Part shown: positions 53,241 through 63,642 of the stretch, piece after piece
Layout of the letters: every line of letters starts with the position of its first letter
How positions within the stretch are numbered: position 1 is the first letter of the stretch
Source of the DNA: an uncultured Flavobacteriaceae bacterium
Lineage (GTDB): Bacteria; Bacteroidota; Bacteroidia; Flavobacteriales; Flavobacteriaceae
Direction of reading: 5' to 3'
Assembly (NCBI GenBank): GCA_947494565.1
Contig: CANLVG010000015.1
Location: 62,001 to 126,000 of the forward strand
Length of the DNA: 64,000 nucleotides
Translations under genes and position numbers: made by a program
Notes under the pieces: model-generated
Database searches by the model: none
Told to the model about the DNA's origin: nothing
What the model saw: the letters and a program-made list of their open reading frames with translations, nothing else

Positions 53241-53292
53241 TTGTGGGTTTCACAAATATATGTATTTTTGGTAAACCAAACTGGTAAACCAA
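53241..53292 (+). promoter_or_regulatory. Promoter plus tandem operator of alginate unit 1
   Basis: A -33 TTG at 53241-53243 is followed after exactly 19 bp by the -7 box TATTTTTG at 53263-53270, the Bacteroidetes consensus. The last three bases of the -7 box start operator copy 1, TTGGTAAACCAA (53268-53279). Copy 2, CTGGTAAACCAA, follows at 53281-53292, 13 bp later. The kinase-like ATG is 11 bp further on, so the transcript leader is very short and a bound protein would block initiation. Half-sites TTGGT/ACCAA match FadR-subfamily GntR operators (for example UxuR/ExuR), an inference from known motifs. Confidence 0.8.
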
Positions 53293-53302
53293 TTTAAAAA
53301 AT

Positions 53303-53803
53303 ATGGAAAATGATAATCCCATCGTTATTCTGGTTGGAGTTTGCGGTACCGGTAAGGGGGCTGTAGGTCAGCAACTGGCCAAAAGATTACAAGTTCCATT
53401 CTTTGATATGGACAAATTGAATAATTCTAAAGACCAGCCCAAAGTCAAGCTACCGCAAAATATAAACATGGACAAATGGCTGACCTGCATTGAGGAGTTG
53501 ATTTTGACCCAATCAAGCCAGCGAGGTTGTGTTCTTTCTTGTTCGATATTGAAAAAAGAACATCGCAAAAGACTGACAACCAATAGTAGTCATCCATTGG
53601 ATTGGGTATTTATGAACGACTCCTTTGAAAATGTCGCCCAGCGTATCAAAAAAATTGAGCTTCCCGGCCGGCCTATGTCATTATTGAGATCGGACTTCGA
53701 CATCCTCGAACCTCCAAAACGAGCTTTGACCATAGATATGACCTATTCTGAACAAGAAATTGTGGATACCATCCTAAAATACTTGGCCCGTAAATACGGG
53801 TGA
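53303..53803 (+). CDS. Gluconokinase-like P-loop protein with altered Walker A
   Basis: The protein has 166 residues, the length of GntK. The fold matches gluconokinase across its length: P-loop strand IVILVGVCGTGKGAVGQ (7-23), FFDMDKLNN, CSILKKEHRKRL (GntK: CSALKRxYRDxLR), GRPMSLLRSDFDILEPP (GntK: LLxSQFxxLEPP). The Walker A motif reads G12-VCGTG-K18-G19-A20, so the Ser/Thr that normally follows Lys and binds Mg is missing, and the LHP substrate loop is LNN. It could be a divergent KDG or gluconate kinase, or an inactive sensor. It is the first gene of operator unit 1 and lies 41 bp upstream of the PL6 lyase gene. Confidence 0.8.
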   Translation: MENDNPIVILVGVCGTGKGAVGQQLAKRLQVPFFDMDKLNNSKDQPKVKLPQNINMDKWLTCIEELILTQSSQRGCVLSCSILKKEHRKRLTTNSSHPLDWVFMNDSFENVAQRIKKIELPGRPMSLLRSDFDILEPPKRALTIDMTYSEQEIVDTILKYLARKYG

Positions 53804-53844
53804 CACCTGATCTAGCAATTTCATTCATCTATATCTTCCAAAAA

Positions 53845-56166
53845 ATGAAAATAAAAGGTTTATTACCCATAATTGTGACGCTGTTGCTGCTTTCCTGTGG
53901 AGAAAATACTCCTAAAAGAGGCATCTATGTAAAAGATATCGGCGCATTGAATGCCGCGATAGCAAAAGCAACTCCTGGAGACGAAATCATCATGGCCAAT
54001 GGAGAATGGACCGATGTCGAAATCCGATTTATAGGCTACGGCTCGGAGAAGCAGCCCATAACACTTAAAGCAGAAACTGCTGGTGAGGTATTGATCAAAG
54101 GAAAATCCGATTTAAAACTCGGAGGCGAATATTTAGTAGTAGATGGTTTGTTTTTTTTAGAAGGCTCATCTCCTTCAGGAGCGGTAATTGAATATGCAAT
54201 CGACCAGGATACGCTCGCCAATCATTCTAAGGTTACGAACTGCGCAATTCTGGATTTTAATAAATCCCAAAGAAATAAGCAAGACCTGTGGGTGCTATTC
54301 AAGGGACGCCACAACCAACTCGATTATTGCTATCTGGCAGGAAAATCAAATCGAGGTCCTACCATCAGGGTTGACCTTGCAGGAAATAGAAGTATAAAGA
54401 ATTACCATAAAATCACGAATAACTATTTCGGGCCACGACCTCCCAAAGGGGGTCCTAGTGCAGAGACCATACAGCTTGGAAATAGTTTTACGTCAATGGC
54501 ACCAAGTTATACGCTAGTCGCAAATAATTTTTTTGATCGCTGTAATGGCGAAGTAGAAGTTATTTCTAGTAAAACCAATTTCAATGAATTTCGAAACAAT
54601 GTTTTCTACAAAAGCCAAGGTTCATTGGTAACAAGACACGGAAACTATTGCATCGTTGATGGTAATTATTTTATTGGGGATACGAGTTCTGAACAAATTG
54701 GGGGTGTACGATTGATAGGTACTGGGCATTGGGTAACCAACAATTATTTTTACAACCTCAAAGGAAAGGTTTTCCGAAGTCCACTTGCCGTTATGAACGG
54801 CATTCCAAAATCACCCCTCAATCGATACATACAGGTTACCGATGTGGTAGTAGCCCACAACTCCTGGATCAATTGTACGTCGCCTCTACAATTTGGAGTG
54901 GGTTCAAATGTCGAACAAAAAGATGTACTGCCAGCTTCGGAAATCAGATCTGAAAGACCTATTCGCACTATTGTGGCAAACAATCTCATTTACAATACCA
55001 CCAGCGATAAGCAACCCGTAGTGGCTCACGATTCATTAGATGGAATCAATTTCAAGAGTAATTTGATAAATAATCAAGGCACCGCATTCGATCATGATTC
55101 AGGGTTTCATCAAGAAGATTTTTCACTTTCCGAACTGGAGGAAAACATTGTAATTCCCTCAAATGACCTACCTGACCTGGAACTTTATAATGGTTTTGAA
55201 TTTGACCAAATTAAGGAAGACGTGTTCCGTAATTCCCGTACAAACAATAATAAGGTCGGGGCCATATCCAGTGCACCCGTCGAGAAACCAAATCTGATGG
55301 ACTTGTCACAATACGGCCCGGATTGGTATATGCGAAACTCGGTCAAAGATACAATCGCTAAAACCTACACCGCAGGTTCCGTAGTCGAATTGAACACGGC
55401 AGTTCAAGAAGCAAAAAGTGGCGACACGATAATTTTGACCGCTAACCGATATGAGTTGAAATCCTCATTAAAAATTGATAAAAAGCTAACCATAAAGTCA
55501 GCTGATACCCGCAATAAGGTGACAATTCAGTATGATGGTCTGGCAGCAACCCCTACGTTTGAAATGAATCCCAAGGGAAAGCTTTTTTTAGAATCGTTGA
55601 TCCTAAGGGGAAATGGAGATAACTACGCATTTGCAAGTTTGCATAGCAATATGTCCAGCTTGTACAATTTGAGCGTTGCCGACTGCGAACTATCGGATTT
55701 CGATTATGTGGTAAAAGGGTACAAGTATTCTTTTTCAGAGTACATTAAATTCACTTCCTCCTCTATTAGAAACTGTGCAAACGGTTTGGAGCTGTCCGCA
55801 GAAGACGATGACCGCGGTGATTACAATGCCGAAAATGTTTTCATTGATAATTGCACTTTTGAAGGTATCGATAAAAACGTTATCGATTACTACAGGGGCG
55901 GGTATGATGAGTCTACCGTTGGAGGCAACCTCATAGTCACCAATAGTAGTTTTGCAGCATGTGGTGCTAAAGAGGAAAACGGAATTTTGATCAACACCTA
56001 CGGCATCATTAATGTAGACCTTTCTGGAAATAGCTTTACAGATAATCAAGTGAAACTAGTTGCTCGTTTGTGGGGTGCAAAAAATAACACCTATTCGGAT
56101 AACGAAATAAGTCGCTCGGGGAAGTTGGTTGTTGAAGAAAACCTTCCGTTGAAGCTGATGTACTAA
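53845..56166 (+). CDS. PL6 family alginate lyase, lipoprotein
   Basis: 773 residues from ATG 53845 (lipoprotein signal ending TLLLLSC); the open frame extends 15 codons upstream with no signal character. Right-handed beta-helix related to chondroitinase B. Catalytic Lys243 (EVISSKTNF) and Arg264 (LVTRHGNY) are 21 residues apart, the same spacing as Lys250/Arg271 of chondroitinase B. The N-terminal domain also has NGEWTDVEI, YFGPRPPKGGPSAETIQLG and GGVRLIGTGHWVTNNYF. A second beta-helix (about 505-770) follows, as in two-domain PL6 enzymes. It cleaves alginate by beta-elimination at the cell surface or periplasm. Co-transcribed with the kinase-like gene. Confidence 0.92.
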   Translation: MKIKGLLPIIVTLLLLSCGENTPKRGIYVKDIGALNAAIAKATPGDEIIMANGEWTDVEIRFIGYGSEKQPITLKAETAGEVLIKGKSDLKLGGEYLVVDGLFFLEGSSPSGAVIEYAIDQDTLANHSKVTNCAILDFNKSQRNKQDLWVLFKGRHNQLDYCYLAGKSNRGPTIRVDLAGNRSIKNYHKITNNYFGPRPPKGGPSAETIQLGNSFTSMAPSYTLVANNFFDRCNGEVEVISSKTNFNEFRNNVFYKSQGSLVTRHGNYCIVDGNYFIGDTSSEQIGGVRLIGTGHWVTNNYFYNLKGKVFRSPLAVMNGIPKSPLNRYIQVTDVVVAHNSWINCTSPLQFGVGSNVEQKDVLPASEIRSERPIRTIVANNLIYNTTSDKQPVVAHDSLDGINFKSNLINNQGTAFDHDSGFHQEDFSLSELEENIVIPSNDLPDLELYNGFEFDQIKEDVFRNSRTNNNKVGAISSAPVEKPNLMDLSQYGPDWYMRNSVKDTIAKTYTAGSVVELNTAVQEAKSGDTIILTANRYELKSSLKIDKKLTIKSADTRNKVTIQYDGLAATPTFEMNPKGKLFLESLILRGNGDNYAFASLHSNMSSLYNLSVADCELSDFDYVVKGYKYSFSEYIKFTSSSIRNCANGLELSAEDDDRGDYNAENVFIDNCTFEGIDKNVIDYYRGGYDESTVGGNLIVTNSSFAACGAKEENGILINTYGIINVDLSGNSFTDNQVKLVARLWGAKNNTYSDNEISRSGKLVVEENLPLKLMY

Positions 56167-56382
56167 TCATTTGCACCATAACAGAAAAACACAATGCCAA
56201 GCCCCCTTTTAACATGCTACCTCATGTAGTTTCATAGATGCATTGGTATTGCAATATGAGGTGGCACGGAAACAAGACCGAAGTTTGATTTCAACAAGCA
56301 TTCGTAGGCCAGGTTAAAACGTCATTGGGAAAATACCCGTTATAGTAGGATTTACTTAACCGACCGATTTTATGTTAAATAT
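56167..56382. other. Intergenic region with imperfect inverted repeat
   Basis: Between the PL6 stop and the unit 2 promoter. An imperfect inverted repeat, GCTACCTCAT at 56216-56225 and ATGAGGTGGC at 56256-56265, can pair over 10 bp with one G-U and a 30-base loop. No T-run follows it, so it is not a classical intrinsic terminator. It is preceded by a run GCCCCCTTTT. No gene seen. Confidence 0.4.
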
Positions 56383-56434
56383 TTGTTAGTCTTACAAATA
56401 TTCTTATTTTTGGTAAACCAAACTGGTTAACCAA
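56383..56434 (+). promoter_or_regulatory. Promoter plus tandem operator of alginate unit 2
   Basis: Same design as unit 1: -33 TTG at 56383-56385, 19 bp spacer, -7 box TATTTTTG at 56405-56412. Operator copy 1 TTGGTAAACCAA lies at 56410-56421, and copy 2 CTGGTTAACCAA at 56423-56434, 13 bp apart. The -7 box and copy 1 share three bases. An ATG three bases after copy 2 (56437) opens a 3-codon frame only; the PL7 gene starts 148 bp downstream. Confidence 0.8.
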
Positions 56435-56582
56435 TTATGAACTCTTAAGTATGCTCTTTTGATAGGACTGTATTTTGAATACAATTAGATTCTATTTCAA
56501 ACAGTAAGAATCAAGTGAGATTTGAACGAGCTTATCCGATTACTGTTATTGCTTTAATTGTAACACCGCACAAAAAAATAAG

Positions 56583-58646
56583 ATGAACTTTAAAATAATA
56601 AAATCAACTTTGGCCCATTATCCGTTAATGGCTACTGTCGTTTTACTGCTACATGGTTGCGGGAATACCAATAAAAAGCAAGACCTCGCAAAGGAGAATA
56701 CGAATTTAACTTCAGAGACTACTGCAAACGATATTATACCCTTTTTCCAACATTGGAACCTGATCTTAGGTGATGGTTCCAATGTAGGCCAAGCAACGGA
56801 CTACGACAACAAAGATTTCTTTTATACGGAGCGTGACGACAATGGCGATTGGGTGGTATTTAAGTCCCCTAATGCAGGCAATACCCATGGTACTTCGAAC
56901 AATACAAGAAGCGAATTGGCCCAATTAAAAAAATGGACCCCGATGACGGAAGCCAAAATGAATGCTACACTAAAGGTTATGAACGTCTCAACTACCGGAG
57001 ATGCTCGTGTTGCAGCTACCTACTCTGTAGTTGTCGGTCAAATTCATAGTGCGGACGGCCATGAGAACGAACCGCTAAAAATATTTTACAAAAAATTTCC
57101 AGGTCATACCAAAGGTTCGGTCTTTTGGCATTATGAAATCAATACAGCCGGTGATGACAATTCGCGTAGATGGGATTATTCCTATCCCATTTGGGGCTAT
57201 GACTTTTCTGTTGTGGGAACCGATAAAGACACCTACCCACCAGAACCGGAAGATGGTATTGCCTTAGGCGAGGAGTTCAGTTATGAAGTGGATGTTAAGG
57301 ATGGAATCATGCATCTAACATTCACTAGCGAAGGGCACAAAACCAAAACATTTACAAAAAGCCTTATTTCATCGGAATACACGGTACGCTCGAATATACC
57401 GGAACAAGTCAAAGATTTATTCGTGCCCATAGGTCAAGATGGTCTAGAGCGTAAAAATGCGTATTCTGGTGAAGGCCTCTTTTTTAAATTGGGAACCTAC
57501 AACCAGACGAATGGAAAAGACCCTAAAGTGAACAAAATTTGGTGTTCTGGTGCGGAAACACATGGCGGGGACCTTCAAAAACAATATGCAGATGGCAATT
57601 ACGCTGAAGTTTGGTTTAAATCGGCAAATATTACGATCAGCGATGATGCCATATCAAATGCCCGATATTTTGAGGCCAATGACGGCCTAAGTACAAAAAC
57701 AGTGTATCCGAATGAGGTAATTCCCTTTATGGATAAATTTAAAATACTGCTGGGCGATGGAACCAATGTAGGGGACATCACGAAGTTCGAACATAAAGAT
57801 TTCTTCTACACGGTCATCGATGGCACAAGGCGTTGGGTAGTTTACAAAACCCCAAATTCCGGTGTCACTTCAAAAAATTCCAGCAATACCAGAACAGAGT
57901 TGCACGAAAAAAGGGAATGGACTCCTGAACAGGGTGGTAAACTAACCGGCACCTGTAAGGTCATGCAAGTTTCAACTTCCGGTGATGCAAGAGTTGCAGC
58001 ATCTTATGCAACCGTAATTGGGCAAATTCATAGTGGGGAGGGTCATGAAAATGAACCTATAAAAATATTTTACAAGAAATTCCCAGGCCATACCAAGGGG
58101 TCTGTATTCTGGAATTATGAGATCAATACGGCAGGTGATGATAATTCCGGGCGATGGGATTATTCCACGGCAGTATGGGGTTATGATATGTCTGTTATTG
58201 GGAAAAACAAGAATGAGCCCCCTACCGAACCTGTAGATGGTATAGAATTAGGGGAAGAATTCAGTTATGAAATTAATGTTTATCAAGGCATCATGTACCT
58301 CACCTTTAAAAGTGATGGCCATGAAACAAAAACATTTACCAAAAGTCTCATCTCATCTGAATATGTAAAAAAATCGGACCTACCGGCACAAACCAGAAAA
58401 CTATTCGTGCCTATAGGGCAAGATGGAACCGAACGAGCTACCGCCTACAGCGGAGAGTTGAATTATTTTAAACAAGGGGCCTATAACCAAACCAATGGCA
58501 AAAGTCCAGAAACAAGTATGGTTTGGGGCGCAGGTGCGGAAACCTATGGCGGTGATATCGCAAAGCAGTATGAAAATGGTTGCTATACCGAAGTATGGTT
58601 TAGGGAAGCTACAGTAGGTCCGGGCACAATTCCGAACACAAATTAA
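56583..58646 (+). CDS. Tandem two-domain PL7 alginate lyase, lipoprotein
   Basis: 687 residues with a lipoprotein signal (VVLLLHGCG). It consists of two complete PL7 jelly-roll domains, about 48-350 and 376-680. Each has the RSEL/RTEL motif (Arg109-Glu111; Arg437-Glu439), the QIH motif (Gln153-His155; Gln481-His483) and the Tyr-containing C-terminal strand (TYNQ near 308; AYNQ near 635). Equivalent residues are 328 apart in both cases, so the repeats are in register without net indels between these motifs. QIH is associated with guluronate-containing bonds in characterised PL7 enzymes. Expected role: surface endolytic depolymerisation of alginate. First gene of unit 2. Confidence 0.93.
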   Translation: MNFKIIKSTLAHYPLMATVVLLLHGCGNTNKKQDLAKENTNLTSETTANDIIPFFQHWNLILGDGSNVGQATDYDNKDFFYTERDDNGDWVVFKSPNAGNTHGTSNNTRSELAQLKKWTPMTEAKMNATLKVMNVSTTGDARVAATYSVVVGQIHSADGHENEPLKIFYKKFPGHTKGSVFWHYEINTAGDDNSRRWDYSYPIWGYDFSVVGTDKDTYPPEPEDGIALGEEFSYEVDVKDGIMHLTFTSEGHKTKTFTKSLISSEYTVRSNIPEQVKDLFVPIGQDGLERKNAYSGEGLFFKLGTYNQTNGKDPKVNKIWCSGAETHGGDLQKQYADGNYAEVWFKSANITISDDAISNARYFEANDGLSTKTVYPNEVIPFMDKFKILLGDGTNVGDITKFEHKDFFYTVIDGTRRWVVYKTPNSGVTSKNSSNTRTELHEKREWTPEQGGKLTGTCKVMQVSTSGDARVAASYATVIGQIHSGEGHENEPIKIFYKKFPGHTKGSVFWNYEINTAGDDNSGRWDYSTAVWGYDMSVIGKNKNEPPTEPVDGIELGEEFSYEINVYQGIMYLTFKSDGHETKTFTKSLISSEYVKKSDLPAQTRKLFVPIGQDGTERATAYSGELNYFKQGAYNQTNGKSPETSMVWGAGAETYGGDIAKQYENGCYTEVWFREATVGPGTIPNTN

Positions 58647-58730
58647 ATCATGACAAGTTCTTAATCTACAGTTCACTTTATGAAGTTGAAATAAAATATT
58701 TTTAAAGATAATAATACCATTAACATGCAG

Positions 58731-58809
58731 CTGGTCGTCGGTGAGTCAATGTTACCATTCACAATAGTGCGTTGGGCAATATGGAAAACTAGTAAGCCCC
58801 GGCGACCAG
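58731..58809. repeat. Inverted repeat between PL7 and kdgF-like genes
   Basis: CTGGTCGTCGG at 58731-58741 pairs with CCGGCGACCAG at 58799-58809 over 11 bp, with a single G-U pair, closing a 57-base internal segment. It lies in a 276-bp non-coding gap (58647-58922) that is long for this operon. It could be a transcript-stabilising or partial-termination element between lyase and catabolic genes, or the ends of a small decayed mobile repeat. Confidence 0.5.
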
Positions 58810-58922
58810 AAATATTCGAATAACAATACAGATTAAATTGAAACAAGCACATACAAATTAAACGCAAATTGGCATGATTACCAGCAGTCAGGTCCATATT
58901 ATTTGATAAGAAAATTAAGATT

Positions 58923-59294
58923 ATGAAACGATTTAGTGAGAAATACATCATCGCAAAAAAAATGGAATGGGAAGAACTTGGAGGAGGAGTATCAAGAAAA
59001 TTTTTGGGTTACGACAACCAAATCATGATGGTAAAAGTGAAATTTGAAAAAGGAGCACTGGGTTCACCACATCAACATTTTCATACCCAAGCTACCTATT
59101 GTGTTTCAGGTAAATTTGAATTTGAAATTAATGGAGAAAAGAAAATCGTAGAAGCCGGAGACGGAGTTTACATAGAACCTAATTTGTTACATAGTGCCGT
59201 TTGTTTAGAAGAAGGGATGCTAATTGACACATTTAGCCCTGTACGGGAAGACTTCCTAAGTGGTGGTGAGGTATCCTATTTTGGAGATAAATAG
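58923..59294 (+). CDS. kdgF: KdgF-like cupin, unsaturated uronate ring-opening enzyme
   Basis: A 123-residue single-domain cupin. The metal site GSPHQHFHTQ gives His50, His52, His54 and Gln56, with His90 (NLLHSAVC) completing it. KdgF proteins convert the 4,5-unsaturated monouronates released by alginate or pectin lyases to the linear keto sugar DEH. The position between the PL7 lyase and the DEH-reductase-like gene is the expected one. No signal peptide; cytosolic. Confidence 0.9.
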   Translation: MKRFSEKYIIAKKMEWEELGGGVSRKFLGYDNQIMMVKVKFEKGALGSPHQHFHTQATYCVSGKFEFEINGEKKIVEAGDGVYIEPNLLHSAVCLEEGMLIDTFSPVREDFLSGGEVSYFGDK

Positions 59295-59352
59295 TCATAA
59301 TATAAAAAGCTAGTCCCTATCGGGGAGATTTAAAAGAATAAAACAGACAATT

Positions 59353-60105
59353 ATGGATTTAAAGGGAAAGATTGCAATTGTAACCGGCGGTACCAGGGAT
59401 ATAGGAAAAGCCATATCGCTAAGATTGGCAAAGGAAGGGGTAAAAGTTGTCGCCAATTATTTTAATAACGAAGACAACGCAAAAGAAACACTTAAGGAGA
59501 TTGAAGCTTTGGGAGGAACTGCCATTATCGTCAAAGGCGATATGACCCAAAAGGGAGATGTCGCCAATTTGGTAAGAGAAACAATTGGCGCTTTCGGAGG
59601 CAACATTGATATAGTAGTCAACAATGCAGGAGGTTTGGTAGCTAGAAAAACCATAGCCGAAATGGACGAGGCCTTTTTCAATAAAGTTATGTTTTTAAAC
59701 CTCAACTCTACATTTTTAGTTTCAAAAGCAGCATTGCCCTATATGGATTCTGGCGGCTCAATAGTAAACATTGCCTCCCAAGCGGGAAGAGATGGTGGTG
59801 GCGGTGGGTCTTTGGCTTATGCCACATCGAAGGGTGCTGTTATGACCTTTACAAGAGGTTTAGCAAAAGAAGTGGGACCGAAAGGCATTCGGGTAAATTC
59901 CTTATGCCCAGGTATGATCGCAACTAAATTTCATGATGACTTTACCAAAGATGAGGTGCGTAAAAAGGTGGAAGGTATGACACCCCTTCGCAGACAAGGT
60001 TCTGCACAAGAAATCGCGAACACCGTGGCATGCTTGGCTTCCTCGGAAACATCTTTCATGACGGGAGCGAATGTGGATATCAACGGGGGGCTGGCATTTT
60101 CGTAG
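59353..60105 (+). CDS. SDR family oxidoreductase, probable DEH reductase
   Basis: A 250-residue classical SDR. Cofactor loop TGGTRDIG (11-18), which has Asp16 where most family members have the first Gly of GIG; NNAGG motif; catalytic Ser142, Tyr156 and Lys160 (AYATSKG); C-terminal GANVDINGG. In alginate loci such enzymes reduce DEH (4-deoxy-L-erythro-5-hexoseulose uronate) to 2-keto-3-deoxygluconate with NAD(P)H; specificity here is inferred from the location 58 bp after kdgF. Cytosolic. Last gene of unit 2. Confidence 0.88.
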   Translation: MDLKGKIAIVTGGTRDIGKAISLRLAKEGVKVVANYFNNEDNAKETLKEIEALGGTAIIVKGDMTQKGDVANLVRETIGAFGGNIDIVVNNAGGLVARKTIAEMDEAFFNKVMFLNLNSTFLVSKAALPYMDSGGSIVNIASQAGRDGGGGGSLAYATSKGAVMTFTRGLAKEVGPKGIRVNSLCPGMIATKFHDDFTKDEVRKKVEGMTPLRRQGSAQEIANTVACLASSETSFMTGANVDINGGLAFS

Positions 60106-60197
60106 CCAAACACTAAGCGTATTGTGGATTTCGCAATCCGTTGACCCCACGGTTGATAAGGTCACAAAAAATCAAATCATAAAATTTGGATTTAATT

Positions 60198-60249
60198 TTT
60201 ATTTAACAAAGTAATAACATATATTTGGTAAACCAAATTGGTTAACCAG
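60198..60249 (+). promoter_or_regulatory. Promoter plus tandem operator of alginate unit 3 (susC)
   Basis: The -7 box TATATTTG lies at 60220-60227. The -33 position 19 bp upstream is TTT (60198-60200) rather than TTG, so the core promoter is weaker than those of units 1 and 2. Operator copy 1 TTGGTAAACCAA lies at 60225-60236, copy 2 TTGGTTAACCAG at 60238-60249, again 13 bp apart and again overlapping the -7 box. The susC start is about 300 bp downstream. Confidence 0.78.
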
Positions 60250-60250
60250 T

Positions 60251-60277
60251 ATGGAAAACCAATTAAAAAGCATCTAA
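60251..60277 (+). CDS. Possible 8-codon leader peptide
   Basis: Immediately after the unit 3 operator an ATG opens MENQLKSI followed by TAA. It occupies the same place as the kinase-like gene start in unit 1, which also begins MEN. It could be a leader peptide influencing the hairpins downstream, or a relic of a duplicated promoter-gene start. Very short, so the call is tentative. Confidence 0.25.
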   Translation: MENQLKSI

Positions 60278-60334
60278 AAGCCTAACTACTAACGAGCTAT
60301 AACTTACAAAATGGGAAAATAAATCTAAGAAATG

Positions 60335-60364
60335 AAAAAAGGACGGGTGCACGCCCATCCTTTT
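60335..60364 (+). terminator. Terminator/attenuator-like hairpin in susC leader
   Basis: AAAAGGA (60337-60343) pairs with TCCTTTT (60358-60364). One C/A mismatch separates this from an inner GGG/CCC stem (60345-60347 and 60354-60356) with a 6-base loop; the 3' arm ends in TTTT. It lies between the unit 3 promoter and susC, where readthrough would be needed for susC expression unless a second promoter exists. It may also terminate a transcript reading through from unit 2. Confidence 0.55.
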
Positions 60365-60371
60365 AAATCAA

Positions 60372-60422
60372 ATTACTTCATTTTGAAGGGAAGTAATACT
60401 TACATGATACCAATGATATCAT
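60372..60422 (+). promoter_or_regulatory. Alternative hairpins and palindrome in susC leader
   Basis: ATTACTTC (60372-60379) can pair with GAAGTAAT (60390-60397) over 8 bp. The inner CTTCA/TGAAG (60376-60380 and 60384-60388) forms a mutually exclusive 5-bp hairpin. A perfect 10-bp palindrome ATGATATCAT follows at 60413-60422. No gene lies here. The elements could tune susC translation or mark a second regulator site. Confidence 0.35.
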
Positions 60423-60552
60423 ATTCTACAAAATTACAATAAACATTTGATTTTTTAGAATGCGTGTCTTCGGTAAATTTCATTTAACAGGTGTAGACCT
60501 ATTAAGTGTCAAAACTCAAAATTGACTAACATTTTAACTTAAACTAAATTTT

Positions 60553-63500
60553 ATGAAGATTACGTTACTAAAAAGGCTGTTGTTGTTCGGAGCATTCATT
60601 TGTTTCTCCGCGGTATCGGCTCAGACAGTATCAGGTACGGTCACTGATTCTAGTGGCCCATTGCCTGGAGCAAGTGTTGTGGTTAAGGGAACCACAAATG
60701 GCACACAAACCGATTTCGATGGAAATTTCACTATAGACAACGTTGACAGCTCCGCTACTTTGGTATTTAGCTACATCGGCTATTCCACACAGGAAATTGC
60801 GGTAAACGGTCAAGGAACTATAAATGTTATCCTAGCAGAAGATGCTAGTCAACTTGATGAAGTCGTAGTAGTCGGTTACGGCACTCAGAAAAAATCTACA
60901 ATAACCGGTTCCATATCAAAAGTAACCAATGAGACTTTAGATCAAATTGCTGTATCAAGGGTTGATGATGCTCTTATTGGTCAGGTTTCCGGTGTTAATA
61001 TACAAGCAACAAATGCTGAAGCGGGTGGTGCACCTACAATCACAATTAGAGGTGTTGGTTCCATAGCAGCGGACTCAGGACCTGCGTTAGTGGTTGACGG
61101 AATTGTGGTAAGCTCAGATTTTCTTGGAAACCTTGACATGAACGATGTAGAATCTTTTGAAGTTTTGAAGGATGCTGCTTCGGCCGCAATTTATGGTAGT
61201 GAAGGTGCAAATGGGGTTATTTTGATAACGACTAAAAGTGGTAAGGCGGGAAAAACAAAATTCAGTTACCAGACCTATACCGGATACAAGCAGGCACATG
61301 GTAGCGATGACTACAAAAAAGATATCGATGAGTGGTTTGCATTGGAGCAATCAGTTGCTGGCACACTATCTGAAGAATCGCAGTACATTAAACTTTTAGT
61401 AGGGACAACAGGAGTAAATAGAGATTGGCAAGATGTTTTCTTTGATGGAGGTAACGTAACAAGTCATTCACTTTCTGCTAGAGGGGGTACTGAAGATACG
61501 AAGTTCAGTACATCTCTAAGATACCTTCACGATCAAGGAGTGGTAATAACAGATGATTATAAATTATATACCGCTAATTTAAAGGTTAATTCGAAAATTG
61601 GTAAAAAATTAAAGTTTGGCCTTAGTGCTACTCCCTCTTACACCAAACAGCGACGTTTACCAACTTCAATTCATAACCCAATTCGTCAATCACCTTGGTT
61701 GCCAATTTATCATACCGAAGAATCGCTTCAGTTTATTAATCGTGATGTATATCCAGATGTCGGTATTGGGGATTATTTCTGGGAAAACCATTTAGTCGAA
61801 TTGGATCTGGATGGAGACGGCAGTGATTCGAGACCTCGTACCTCCGGCGATTCAAATCCGTACCAACAATATGTTGAGAGAGAACACTACGATTTTAATA
61901 CCAAATTATACGGTTCAACCTATTTGAGTTATGAAATTGCCGATGGCCTTACGGCAAAAGCATCTTTGGGTGTAACTATAGACCAGAGAAAACAAACAAG
62001 GTGGGACGGCACCAACTACCATGCTTCCGGCGCTAGTAGGTCTCAGTACACATTGAACAATAGATTTCGCACAAGATTAATTAACGATAACACTCTTAAT
62101 TATACGAAGACTTTTGGAGACCATGACCTAAATGTTTTGGCTGGTTTGACCATTCAAAAAAGAAGAGCTGAGTTCAGTACCATAATTGGTAGTGGGTTTA
62201 CCGATGATCGCCTTAAAAACATGAATGGGGCTGATCCGGAAAACACTATTGTAACTGAATTTAACACAAACCGTAGCAAAATAGGTTATTTCGCCAGAGT
62301 TAATTATGCCTATTTAGGGAAATACTTGTTCAATGCCTCTTTCAGACGAGATGGTAGCTCTGTATTTGGTGTTGACTCCAAATGGGGTAACTTCCCTGCT
62401 GTATCGGTGGGTTGGAATGTTGCCAAAGAAAATTTCTTAAGCAATAGTGATATAATAAGCAATCTAAAGTTTAGGGCCAGTTATGGTCTTACGGGTTCAG
62501 AAAACTTCAATGTAGGAAATGCGCTAACAAATGCATGGCCATACCTCGCGTTAAGTCAAAATACGAACTATGGCATCACGCAAGGTGCTGCTCCTCTAAA
62601 TATTGCTAATCCTGGTTTGCAATGGGAGGCTTCCAAAGAATTGACTATAGGTTTAGACTATGGCTTTGCAGGCAATAGAATATCCGGTTCCATTGATTAT
62701 TATCAGAGAAATAGTGATGAATTACTTTTAAACAACCCTGTATCCTACCTGACTGGGTTTAATCAAGGTATTGTAAACCTAGGAGAGGTACAGAACAGAG
62801 GTTTCGAATTTGAACTTAGAACTAAAAACATTAGTAATGAAAATTTTAGTTGGAACTCCACATTAATAGCCTCTACCAACCAAAATGAATTATTGAGTTT
62901 TGGGGATTCCAATAATGCCTTAATATCTGATACTTACGGCAGAAATTCTCAGTGGATTAATCGCATAGGTGAGCCTATTTCGTCTTACTGGGGTTTTGTT
63001 GTTGATGAGGAGCTTTTTGATGAAACTTCTTTTAGAACAACATATGTCGATAGCCCATGGAATAGAATAAACGGGCAATCTAGAGCGACTATTGTAAAGG
63101 ATTTAAATGGTGACGGTTTAATTACCGACGAGGACAAAACCATTTTGGGAGATCCTTATCCAGATTTGATATATAGCTTTACAAATGAATTCAAACTAGG
63201 GGACTTTGATCTTTCCTTCATGGTGCAAGGAAGTCTTGGTGGCCAAGTAAACAATATTGGCGATGAGTACTTCTATAACTGGTTCGGCAATACTACAAGA
63301 AGTACAGGTGCCGAAGAAGCTGTAGCTGCCGGTCTCGTGCCCGATGTCTCTTTTATTCAAAGAAAGGTTGTAACGAGCGAAGTAATTGCCAGTTCCGATT
63401 ATTTTTCCTTGCGTAATGTAAATCTTGGATATAATTTTTCAAATGATCTGACTTCTCGTATAGGTTTAGATGGATTAAGACTGTATGCCACTGCCCAGAA

Positions 63501-63642
63501 TCTGGTATATGTAACCGCTGATGATTATCACGGTTTCAACCCAGAGCACGACGATAACGGTAATGTAAGGGCATTTGGCTCACAAAGAGCAGGTACGCCA
63601 ATATTTAAGACGTTTACCATTGGTATGAACATTGACTTTTAA
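60553..63642 (+). CDS. susC: SusC-like TonB-dependent transporter
   Basis: A 1029-residue outer-membrane transporter importing oligosaccharides with a SusD lid. Signal peptide ending FSAVSAQ, then a carboxypeptidase-regulatory-like domain (about 25-100, VSGTVTDSSGPLPGASVVVKG), the SusC plug start LDEVVVVGYGTQKKSTITGSIS (about 104), plug motif VLKDAASAAIYGSEGANGVI, and a 22-strand barrel ending FTIGMNIDF. No extra N-terminal STN signalling domain, so control by an ECF sigma/anti-sigma pair is unlikely; the operator upstream explains regulation. The partner SusD gene starts 20 bp downstream. Confidence 0.95.
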   Translation: MKITLLKRLLLFGAFICFSAVSAQTVSGTVTDSSGPLPGASVVVKGTTNGTQTDFDGNFTIDNVDSSATLVFSYIGYSTQEIAVNGQGTINVILAEDASQLDEVVVVGYGTQKKSTITGSISKVTNETLDQIAVSRVDDALIGQVSGVNIQATNAEAGGAPTITIRGVGSIAADSGPALVVDGIVVSSDFLGNLDMNDVESFEVLKDAASAAIYGSEGANGVILITTKSGKAGKTKFSYQTYTGYKQAHGSDDYKKDIDEWFALEQSVAGTLSEESQYIKLLVGTTGVNRDWQDVFFDGGNVTSHSLSARGGTEDTKFSTSLRYLHDQGVVITDDYKLYTANLKVNSKIGKKLKFGLSATPSYTKQRRLPTSIHNPIRQSPWLPIYHTEESLQFINRDVYPDVGIGDYFWENHLVELDLDGDGSDSRPRTSGDSNPYQQYVEREHYDFNTKLYGSTYLSYEIADGLTAKASLGVTIDQRKQTRWDGTNYHASGASRSQYTLNNRFRTRLINDNTLNYTKTFGDHDLNVLAGLTIQKRRAEFSTIIGSGFTDDRLKNMNGADPENTIVTEFNTNRSKIGYFARVNYAYLGKYLFNASFRRDGSSVFGVDSKWGNFPAVSVGWNVAKENFLSNSDIISNLKFRASYGLTGSENFNVGNALTNAWPYLALSQNTNYGITQGAAPLNIANPGLQWEASKELTIGLDYGFAGNRISGSIDYYQRNSDELLLNNPVSYLTGFNQGIVNLGEVQNRGFEFELRTKNISNENFSWNSTLIASTNQNELLSFGDSNNALISDTYGRNSQWINRIGEPISSYWGFVVDEELFDETSFRTTYVDSPWNRINGQSRATIVKDLNGDGLITDEDKTILGDPYPDLIYSFTNEFKLGDFDLSFMVQGSLGGQVNNIGDEYFYNWFGNTTRSTGAEEAVAAGLVPDVSFIQRKVVTSEVIASSDYFSLRNVNLGYNFSNDLTSRIGLDGLRLYATAQNLVYVTADDYHGFNPEHDDNGNVRAFGSQRAGTPIFKTFTIGMNIDF

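Follow-up and report, generated by a model that had tools for sequence, protein, structure and literature searches.

Three promoters in the alginate locus of an uncultured Flavobacteriaceae bacterium carry what we read, with a probability of about 0.92, as operator arrays of an AusR-type repressor, a GntR protein of the FadR subfamily encoded in the same locus. The arrays occupy 53268–53292, 56410–56434 and 60225–60249 of the window, by which we mean the whole 64,000-nt stretch of DNA that was analysed, and consist of 12-bp palindromes (YTGGTNNACCAR), one every 13 bp. We further propose, with moderate confidence and on comparative sequence grounds, that the AusR-controlled susC promoter faces the gene of a conserved three-hairpin cis-antisense RNA of an undescribed family, which would add a second threshold for alginate uptake at the RNA level and would have been kept with AusR across Flavobacteriaceae.

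Three promoter–operator modules and their genes

The initial annotation had described three copies of one promoter–operator module at 53241–53292, 56383–56434 and 60198–60249, and direct reading confirmed both their letters and their positions. The distance of 13 bp given there for the two operators is correct from start to start but not as a gap, since only 1 bp separates the two 12-mers. The −7 box does meet the operators as described: TAnnTTTG overlaps operator 1 by three bases, the common TTG. Promoter 1 (53241–53270, plus strand) comprises a −33 TTG (53241–53243), a 19-nt spacer and the −7 box TATTTTTG (53263–53270), which places the predicted +1 at 53275; operator array 1 (53268–53292) is the exact pair TTGGTAAACCAA (53268–53279) and CTGGTAAACCAA (53281–53292). 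Promoter 2 (56383–56412, plus strand) repeats this layout with TTG at 56383–56385, the same 19 nt, TATTTTTG at 56405–56412 and a predicted +1 at 56417, and its array (56410–56434) is again an exact pair (56410–56421 and 56423–56434). The spacing of exactly 19 nt between TTG and TAnnTTTG had been claimed for these two copies and is found in both; the third, as that wording implied, has TTT and no TTG as its −33 triplet. Promoter 3 (60220–60227, plus strand) thus comprises the −7 box TATATTTG, with a predicted +1 at 60232, and array 3 (60225–60262) combines an exact pair (60225–60236 and 60238–60249) with a third operator in register, the degenerate ATGGAAAACCAA at 60251–60262 (two mismatches), which by eye is also present in several of the nearest relatives.

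The window genes named next all lie on the plus strand. The first after array 1 encodes a gluconokinase-like kinase (53303–53803; SKI, E 3e-9), which reaches 65.1 bits against TIGR01313, under the cut-off of 113.75. This protein has GTGKG. In another genome, a gene that matches the same Pfam family and is under array control but unlinked to the regulator gene (L138:2578–3066) has GTGKS at that place; the nucleotide-binding loop of the window protein has possibly changed. The lyase gene at 53845–56166 (Chondroitinas_B, E 3.7e-204), presumably of PL6 type, was given an ATG start in place of the 53800 of the ORF list. A two-domain alginate lyase gene (56583–58646; Alginate_lyase2, E 2.1e-98, two stretches), a cupin gene (58923–59294; Cupin_2, E 5.5e-12) whose position and length suggest a KdgF-like product, a short-chain dehydrogenase gene (59353–60105; adh_short_C2, E 6e-61) and a susC-type TonB-dependent transporter gene (60553–63642; CarbopepD_reg_2, Plug and TonB_dep_Rec_b-barrel) complete the set. 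Beyond the window the contig reads as susD, two further secreted proteins, two PL7-type lyases, gntR, an MFS transporter and an SDR, with Pfam run there on the first PL7-type lyase and on the GntR, MFS and SDR proteins.

The operator pair is confined to this locus when matched exactly. A whole-genome scan for the paired 12-mers, which the initial annotation had asked for, returned exact YTGGTNNACCARNYTGGTNNACCAR three times in 5.39 Mb, each time at the alginate locus, and an exact-match control with a slightly narrower pattern (first base T) returned 0 in the same genome. Allowing up to three mismatches in YTGGTNNACCARNYTGGTNNACCAR gave seven sites genome-wide, compared with two when the pattern was reversed. 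Of the four additional sites, one is array 3 read in a shifted register and one is the gntR promoter; the other two, on contigs C7 (in a 1299-aa ORF) and C9 (in a 209-aa ORF), were rejected as chance matches because they fall within ORFs. Within the window, 26 matches to the single 12-mer were found at up to two mismatches, compared with a mean of 9.7 in 100 shuffles, and the exact combination of −7 box and single operator occurs in the whole genome at just the three window sites.

The linked regulator gene and arrays across the family

A FadR-type gene encoding GntR and FCD domains (C15:131609–132310, 233 aa; GntR E 8e-19, FCD E 4.7e-24) lies in the same alginate locus, 5.6 kb beyond the window edge, where it adjoins lyase and MFS genes. 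The genome has three FCD-domain genes, the other two being on contigs C1 and C2, and as none of the three falls inside the window, the earlier statement that no regulator gene is present there holds for this type. A degenerate array at the gntR promoter ends 18 bp before the gntR ATG. At this promoter (L008 6562–6591) operator 1 is degenerate and the box is TAAATTTA, and several Aquimarina loci retain both operators; the strength of gntR autoregulation may differ among lineages.

To place the module among relatives we used 79 related loci, obtained by a scan with the GntR protein from the best 80 of 177 relatives (no record named Zobellia was among them). The 79 loci contain 240 exact 12-mers; the reversed sequence has 8, and three shuffles gave 3, 5 and 4. 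Exact copies at most 60 nt apart are spaced by 13, 26 or 39 bp (67, 20 and 1 pairs) and by no other distance, and with one mismatch allowed per copy 173 of 176 pairs keep to these three distances. One-mismatch copies form 159 clusters, 61 single, 61 double, 36 triple and 1 quadruple, some of the singles sitting inside genes. A site or array stands ahead of susC in 71 of the 79 loci and ahead of gntR in 50, where it is mostly single (43/50). For 97 arrays of at least two operators the available upstream sequence was long enough, and in 93 of them TAnnTTTG stands exactly 5 nt ahead of operator 1, against a background of about 0.0007 per position. The uniformity remarked on in the initial annotation therefore extends to the overlap with the −7 box and to the 13-bp spacing but not to the −33 TTG, which among relatives stands at 19 nt in 9/9 arrays of the two-domain lyase and in 22/70 susC arrays. 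By eye, the stretch TTTAAC about 20 nt before the −7 box takes the place of the −33 TTG at many susC promoters (window 60190–60222 and relatives); it is perhaps a contact for another activator or a sigma factor.

A wider scan covered 299 genomes of the family with the exact pair TTGGTNNACCARNYTGGTNNACCAR. The pair was found in 65 genomes, with 0 control matches in every one of the 299. An AusR-like gene, called at E≤1e-60, a threshold of our choosing, is present in 74 of the genomes; all 65 pair-bearing genomes have it, and the pair occurs in 0 of the 225 without it, although these counts are not independent because the genomes are related. Exact matching left 9 of the 74 AusR-like genomes without a pair. 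At least seven pairs are unlinked, meaning that they lie on another contig or more than 190 kb from the AusR-like gene. The seven among the matches listed precede three Alginate_lyase2 genes, one PL6-type gene, one SusC gene, one kinase gene that matches the same Pfam family as 53303–53803, and one gene whose secreted product matches a polysaccharide lyase only weakly and below cut-off; in six of these seven cases the −7 box is flush with the operator.

We considered whether the repeats could be chance occurrences or a general feature of flavobacterial promoters. Relaxing −7 box plus single operator to one mismatch genome-wide does bring the matches down to control level (22 rows, three of them exact, versus 26), but the pair control of 0 in 299 genomes, set against 65 genomes with real matches, and the fixed 13-bp spacing make this explanation next to impossible. 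A second alternative is that another regulator encoded elsewhere in the genome reads the arrays and that the linked GntR gene is incidental. Two further FCD-domain genes are at hand for such a role, and half-sites of the TTGGT/ACCAA type are common to several FadR-type regulators; we nevertheless regard it as very improbable, given that no genome among the 299 has the pair without an AusR-like gene and that the linked gntR has a degenerate array at its own promoter. The regulon of alginate genes under a FadR-type GntR protein that had been proposed from the window alone is thus supported by the GntR–FCD gene in the locus, by exact pairs restricted to that locus and by co-occurrence in 65 of 65 genomes.

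How an AusR-type repressor would act on the arrays can be outlined from their positions. The −7 box TAnnTTTG of Flavobacterium psychrophilum occupies −12 to −5, according to the available portion of that study (PMC9723704). Applied to the promoters here, this means that operator 1 extends from about −7 to +5, operator 2 from +7 to +18 and operator 3, if present, from +20 to +31. Bound repressor would therefore lie over the −7 box, the start point and the beginning of the transcribed region and would block transcription. One repressor dimer would occupy each 12-bp palindrome, with neighbouring dimers 13 bp apart, and alginate breakdown products, for which the initial annotation had proposed KDG or DEH, would free the repressor from the DNA. 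As DNA has 10.5 bp per turn, simple arithmetic suggests that dimers one 13-bp step apart are rotated by roughly a quarter of a turn relative to each other.

A candidate antisense RNA in the susC leader

The leader between array 3 and susC contains a conserved minus-strand element of about 90 nt (60424–60335) with a −7 box, three hairpins and a terminator, which looks like a cis-antisense RNA comparable to DonS of Bacteroides. The initial annotation had made no mention of this element (60335–60436 with its −7 box). The −7 box TAATTTTG, located by its letters at 60429–60436 (minus strand), predicts a +1 at 60424, and a 10-bp hairpin begins at that very base. From the fold and a terminator scan, the candidate RNA (60335–60424, minus strand) consists of this hairpin (60424–60402), a second one (60397–60372) and a terminator (60364–60337) with six U ending at 60335. 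A search of window positions 60100–60700 against Rfam 15 gave three matches (E 0.64 to 0.89), none at gathering score. A small ORF directly after array 3 was dismissed, as by eye it is seemingly not kept in relatives.

For comparison we aligned 52 loci, namely the window and 51 of the 72 loci whose upstream sequence was long enough, chosen for a terminator-like pattern before susC. The minus-strand TAnnTTTG is strict in 43 of the 52 and the U-run is 5–9 long; no −33 TTG is conserved on the minus strand of these loci. The two modelled stems contain 825 Watson–Crick, 54 G-U, 1 A-C and 4 other pairs, and changes on both sides occur at 2 of 17 pairs, one of which is A-U in 31 loci, G-C in 19 and G-U in 2.

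The same element could in principle serve the plus strand, as an attenuator or two-way terminator of the susC leader in place of an antisense RNA gene. The plus strand also folds better than its own shuffles (mean z −3.79, with z below −2 in 49/52) and has a T-run of 1 to 6 after the terminator stem, and the lack of a conserved minus-strand −33 TTG points the same way. We consider this explanation unlikely, though less so than the two weighed above for the operators, on account of several asymmetries between the strands. The minus-strand −7 box keeps a fixed place, the minus-strand U-runs are of 5 to 9, and in 47 of 52 loci the fold of the minus strand is the better one. For the 5′ hairpin, which is outside the modelled stems, mean z is −2.19 on the minus strand, compared with −0.65 on the plus strand. 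The 54 G-U pairs on the minus strand stand against a single A-C, an excess that partly reflects shared descent, as 36 of the 54 sit in one column. An antisense RNA gene thus remains the reading we prefer: that the transcript is made appears likely, whereas for repression of susC by it we see an even chance. If both apply, the RNA would dampen susC as a second layer of control.

A covariance model of the element gave one strong match in the window genome (60331–60436, minus strand, E 6.8e-21), the other two having E 4.2 and 9.8. Across the 79 loci and the window it matched the minus strand in 67 of 80, including 15 that were not used for building, 8 of which have the strict −7 box. Ten plus-strand matches also passed the threshold (best E 4.1e-7), and those compared by eye overlap a minus-strand match. 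The element is present in 65 of the 72 sources in which an array precedes susC, in every case between array and susC, with a predicted RNA length from +1 of 80–106 nt (median 97); it was not found in the other seven (L022, L045, L050, L060, L061, L084 and L086). At E≤1e-6 the model matched 58 of the 299 family genomes, all 58 with an AusR-like gene, and weaker matches up to 1e-3 added 17 genomes, 7 of them with that gene. In a phylum sample, 7 of 345 genomes matched at 1e-5, all from the same family, the share of other families in the 345 being uncounted. Two same-genus genomes in the family sample (G050 and G270) are without operator pair, AusR-like gene and RNA element alike, which shows that not every member of the genus carries the system.

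We also surveyed the 450 nt upstream of 19 susC-type genes of the window genome with our own terminator and box rule. At two of them a −7 box precedes a terminator on the minus strand, the alginate one and one on contig C3. The locus of the latter (C3 near 229371; L149, L176) contains SusD, alpha-L-fucosidase and sulfatase genes; this element is a candidate for a second PUL antisense RNA.

Comparison with known systems

UxuR and ExuR of Escherichia coli are FadR-type regulators of hexuronate genes with TTGGT/ACCAA half-sites, but the alginate-locus protein scores far under both NCBIfam equivalog cut-offs, with 71.3 of 442 bits for UxuR and 72.9 of 396 for ExuR. NanR of E. coli is likewise a FadR-type GntR repressor with a tandem operator; in the accessible text of its description, three dimers bind short-spaced repeats whose sequence differs, (GGTATA)3, and their cooperativity rests on a 32-residue N-terminal extension (PMC8012715). 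In the alginate-locus protein, by contrast, the GntR domain begins at residue 16, so any cooperativity would need another contact.

The closest description is that of AusR, a GntR repressor that acts on single, double or triple operator copies and is freed by breakdown products, with oligosaccharides or metabolic intermediates as effectors, as far as the available parts of two reports state (PMC7874173, PMC8286568). With the AusR regulon of Zobellia galactanivorans, as it appears in those parts and in a third partial source (PMC8073546), the system here shares a GntR repressor gene within the alginate locus, single, double or triple operators at alginate promoters, and uptake and lyase genes for alginate as targets. 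The organism is another one and the comparison is by description only; as far as could be tested, the module appears to be a member of the published AusR-type system. What is documented here family-wide is the 13-bp register, the −7-box overlap and the antisense element, any of which may already be part of the original AusR description. The operator rule, by which the copies keep a 13-bp register and the first lies flush against the −7 box, is sufficiently strict for predicting alginate regulons throughout Flavobacteriaceae, which play an important part in breaking down seaweed polysaccharides.

For the antisense element, a covariance model is at hand and the predictions are clear and testable. 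Among the titles and abstract openings listed for antisense RNAs or sRNAs with susC, alginate or Zobellia, none concerned an antisense RNA of a flavobacterial alginate susC. In the part of the F. psychrophilum study available, its authors cite PUL antisense RNAs of Bacteroides fragilis and suggest that work on flavobacteria could start from the list they give (PMC9723704). The DonS-type PUL antisense RNAs of Bacteroides, in the accessible sections of two papers, are 78–128 nt long and encoded against a susC homologue (PMC7366714, PMC10994844). The element described here would likewise yield a short RNA (about 90 nt) against a susC homologue, with −7 box and terminator, as predicted from its sequence; it differs from what those sections describe in belonging to marine Flavobacteriaceae and an alginate locus, in its three recurrent hairpins and in being found with AusR arrays. 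If it is expressed, PUL-directed antisense control, described in those sections for gut Bacteroides, would extend to marine alginate degraders.
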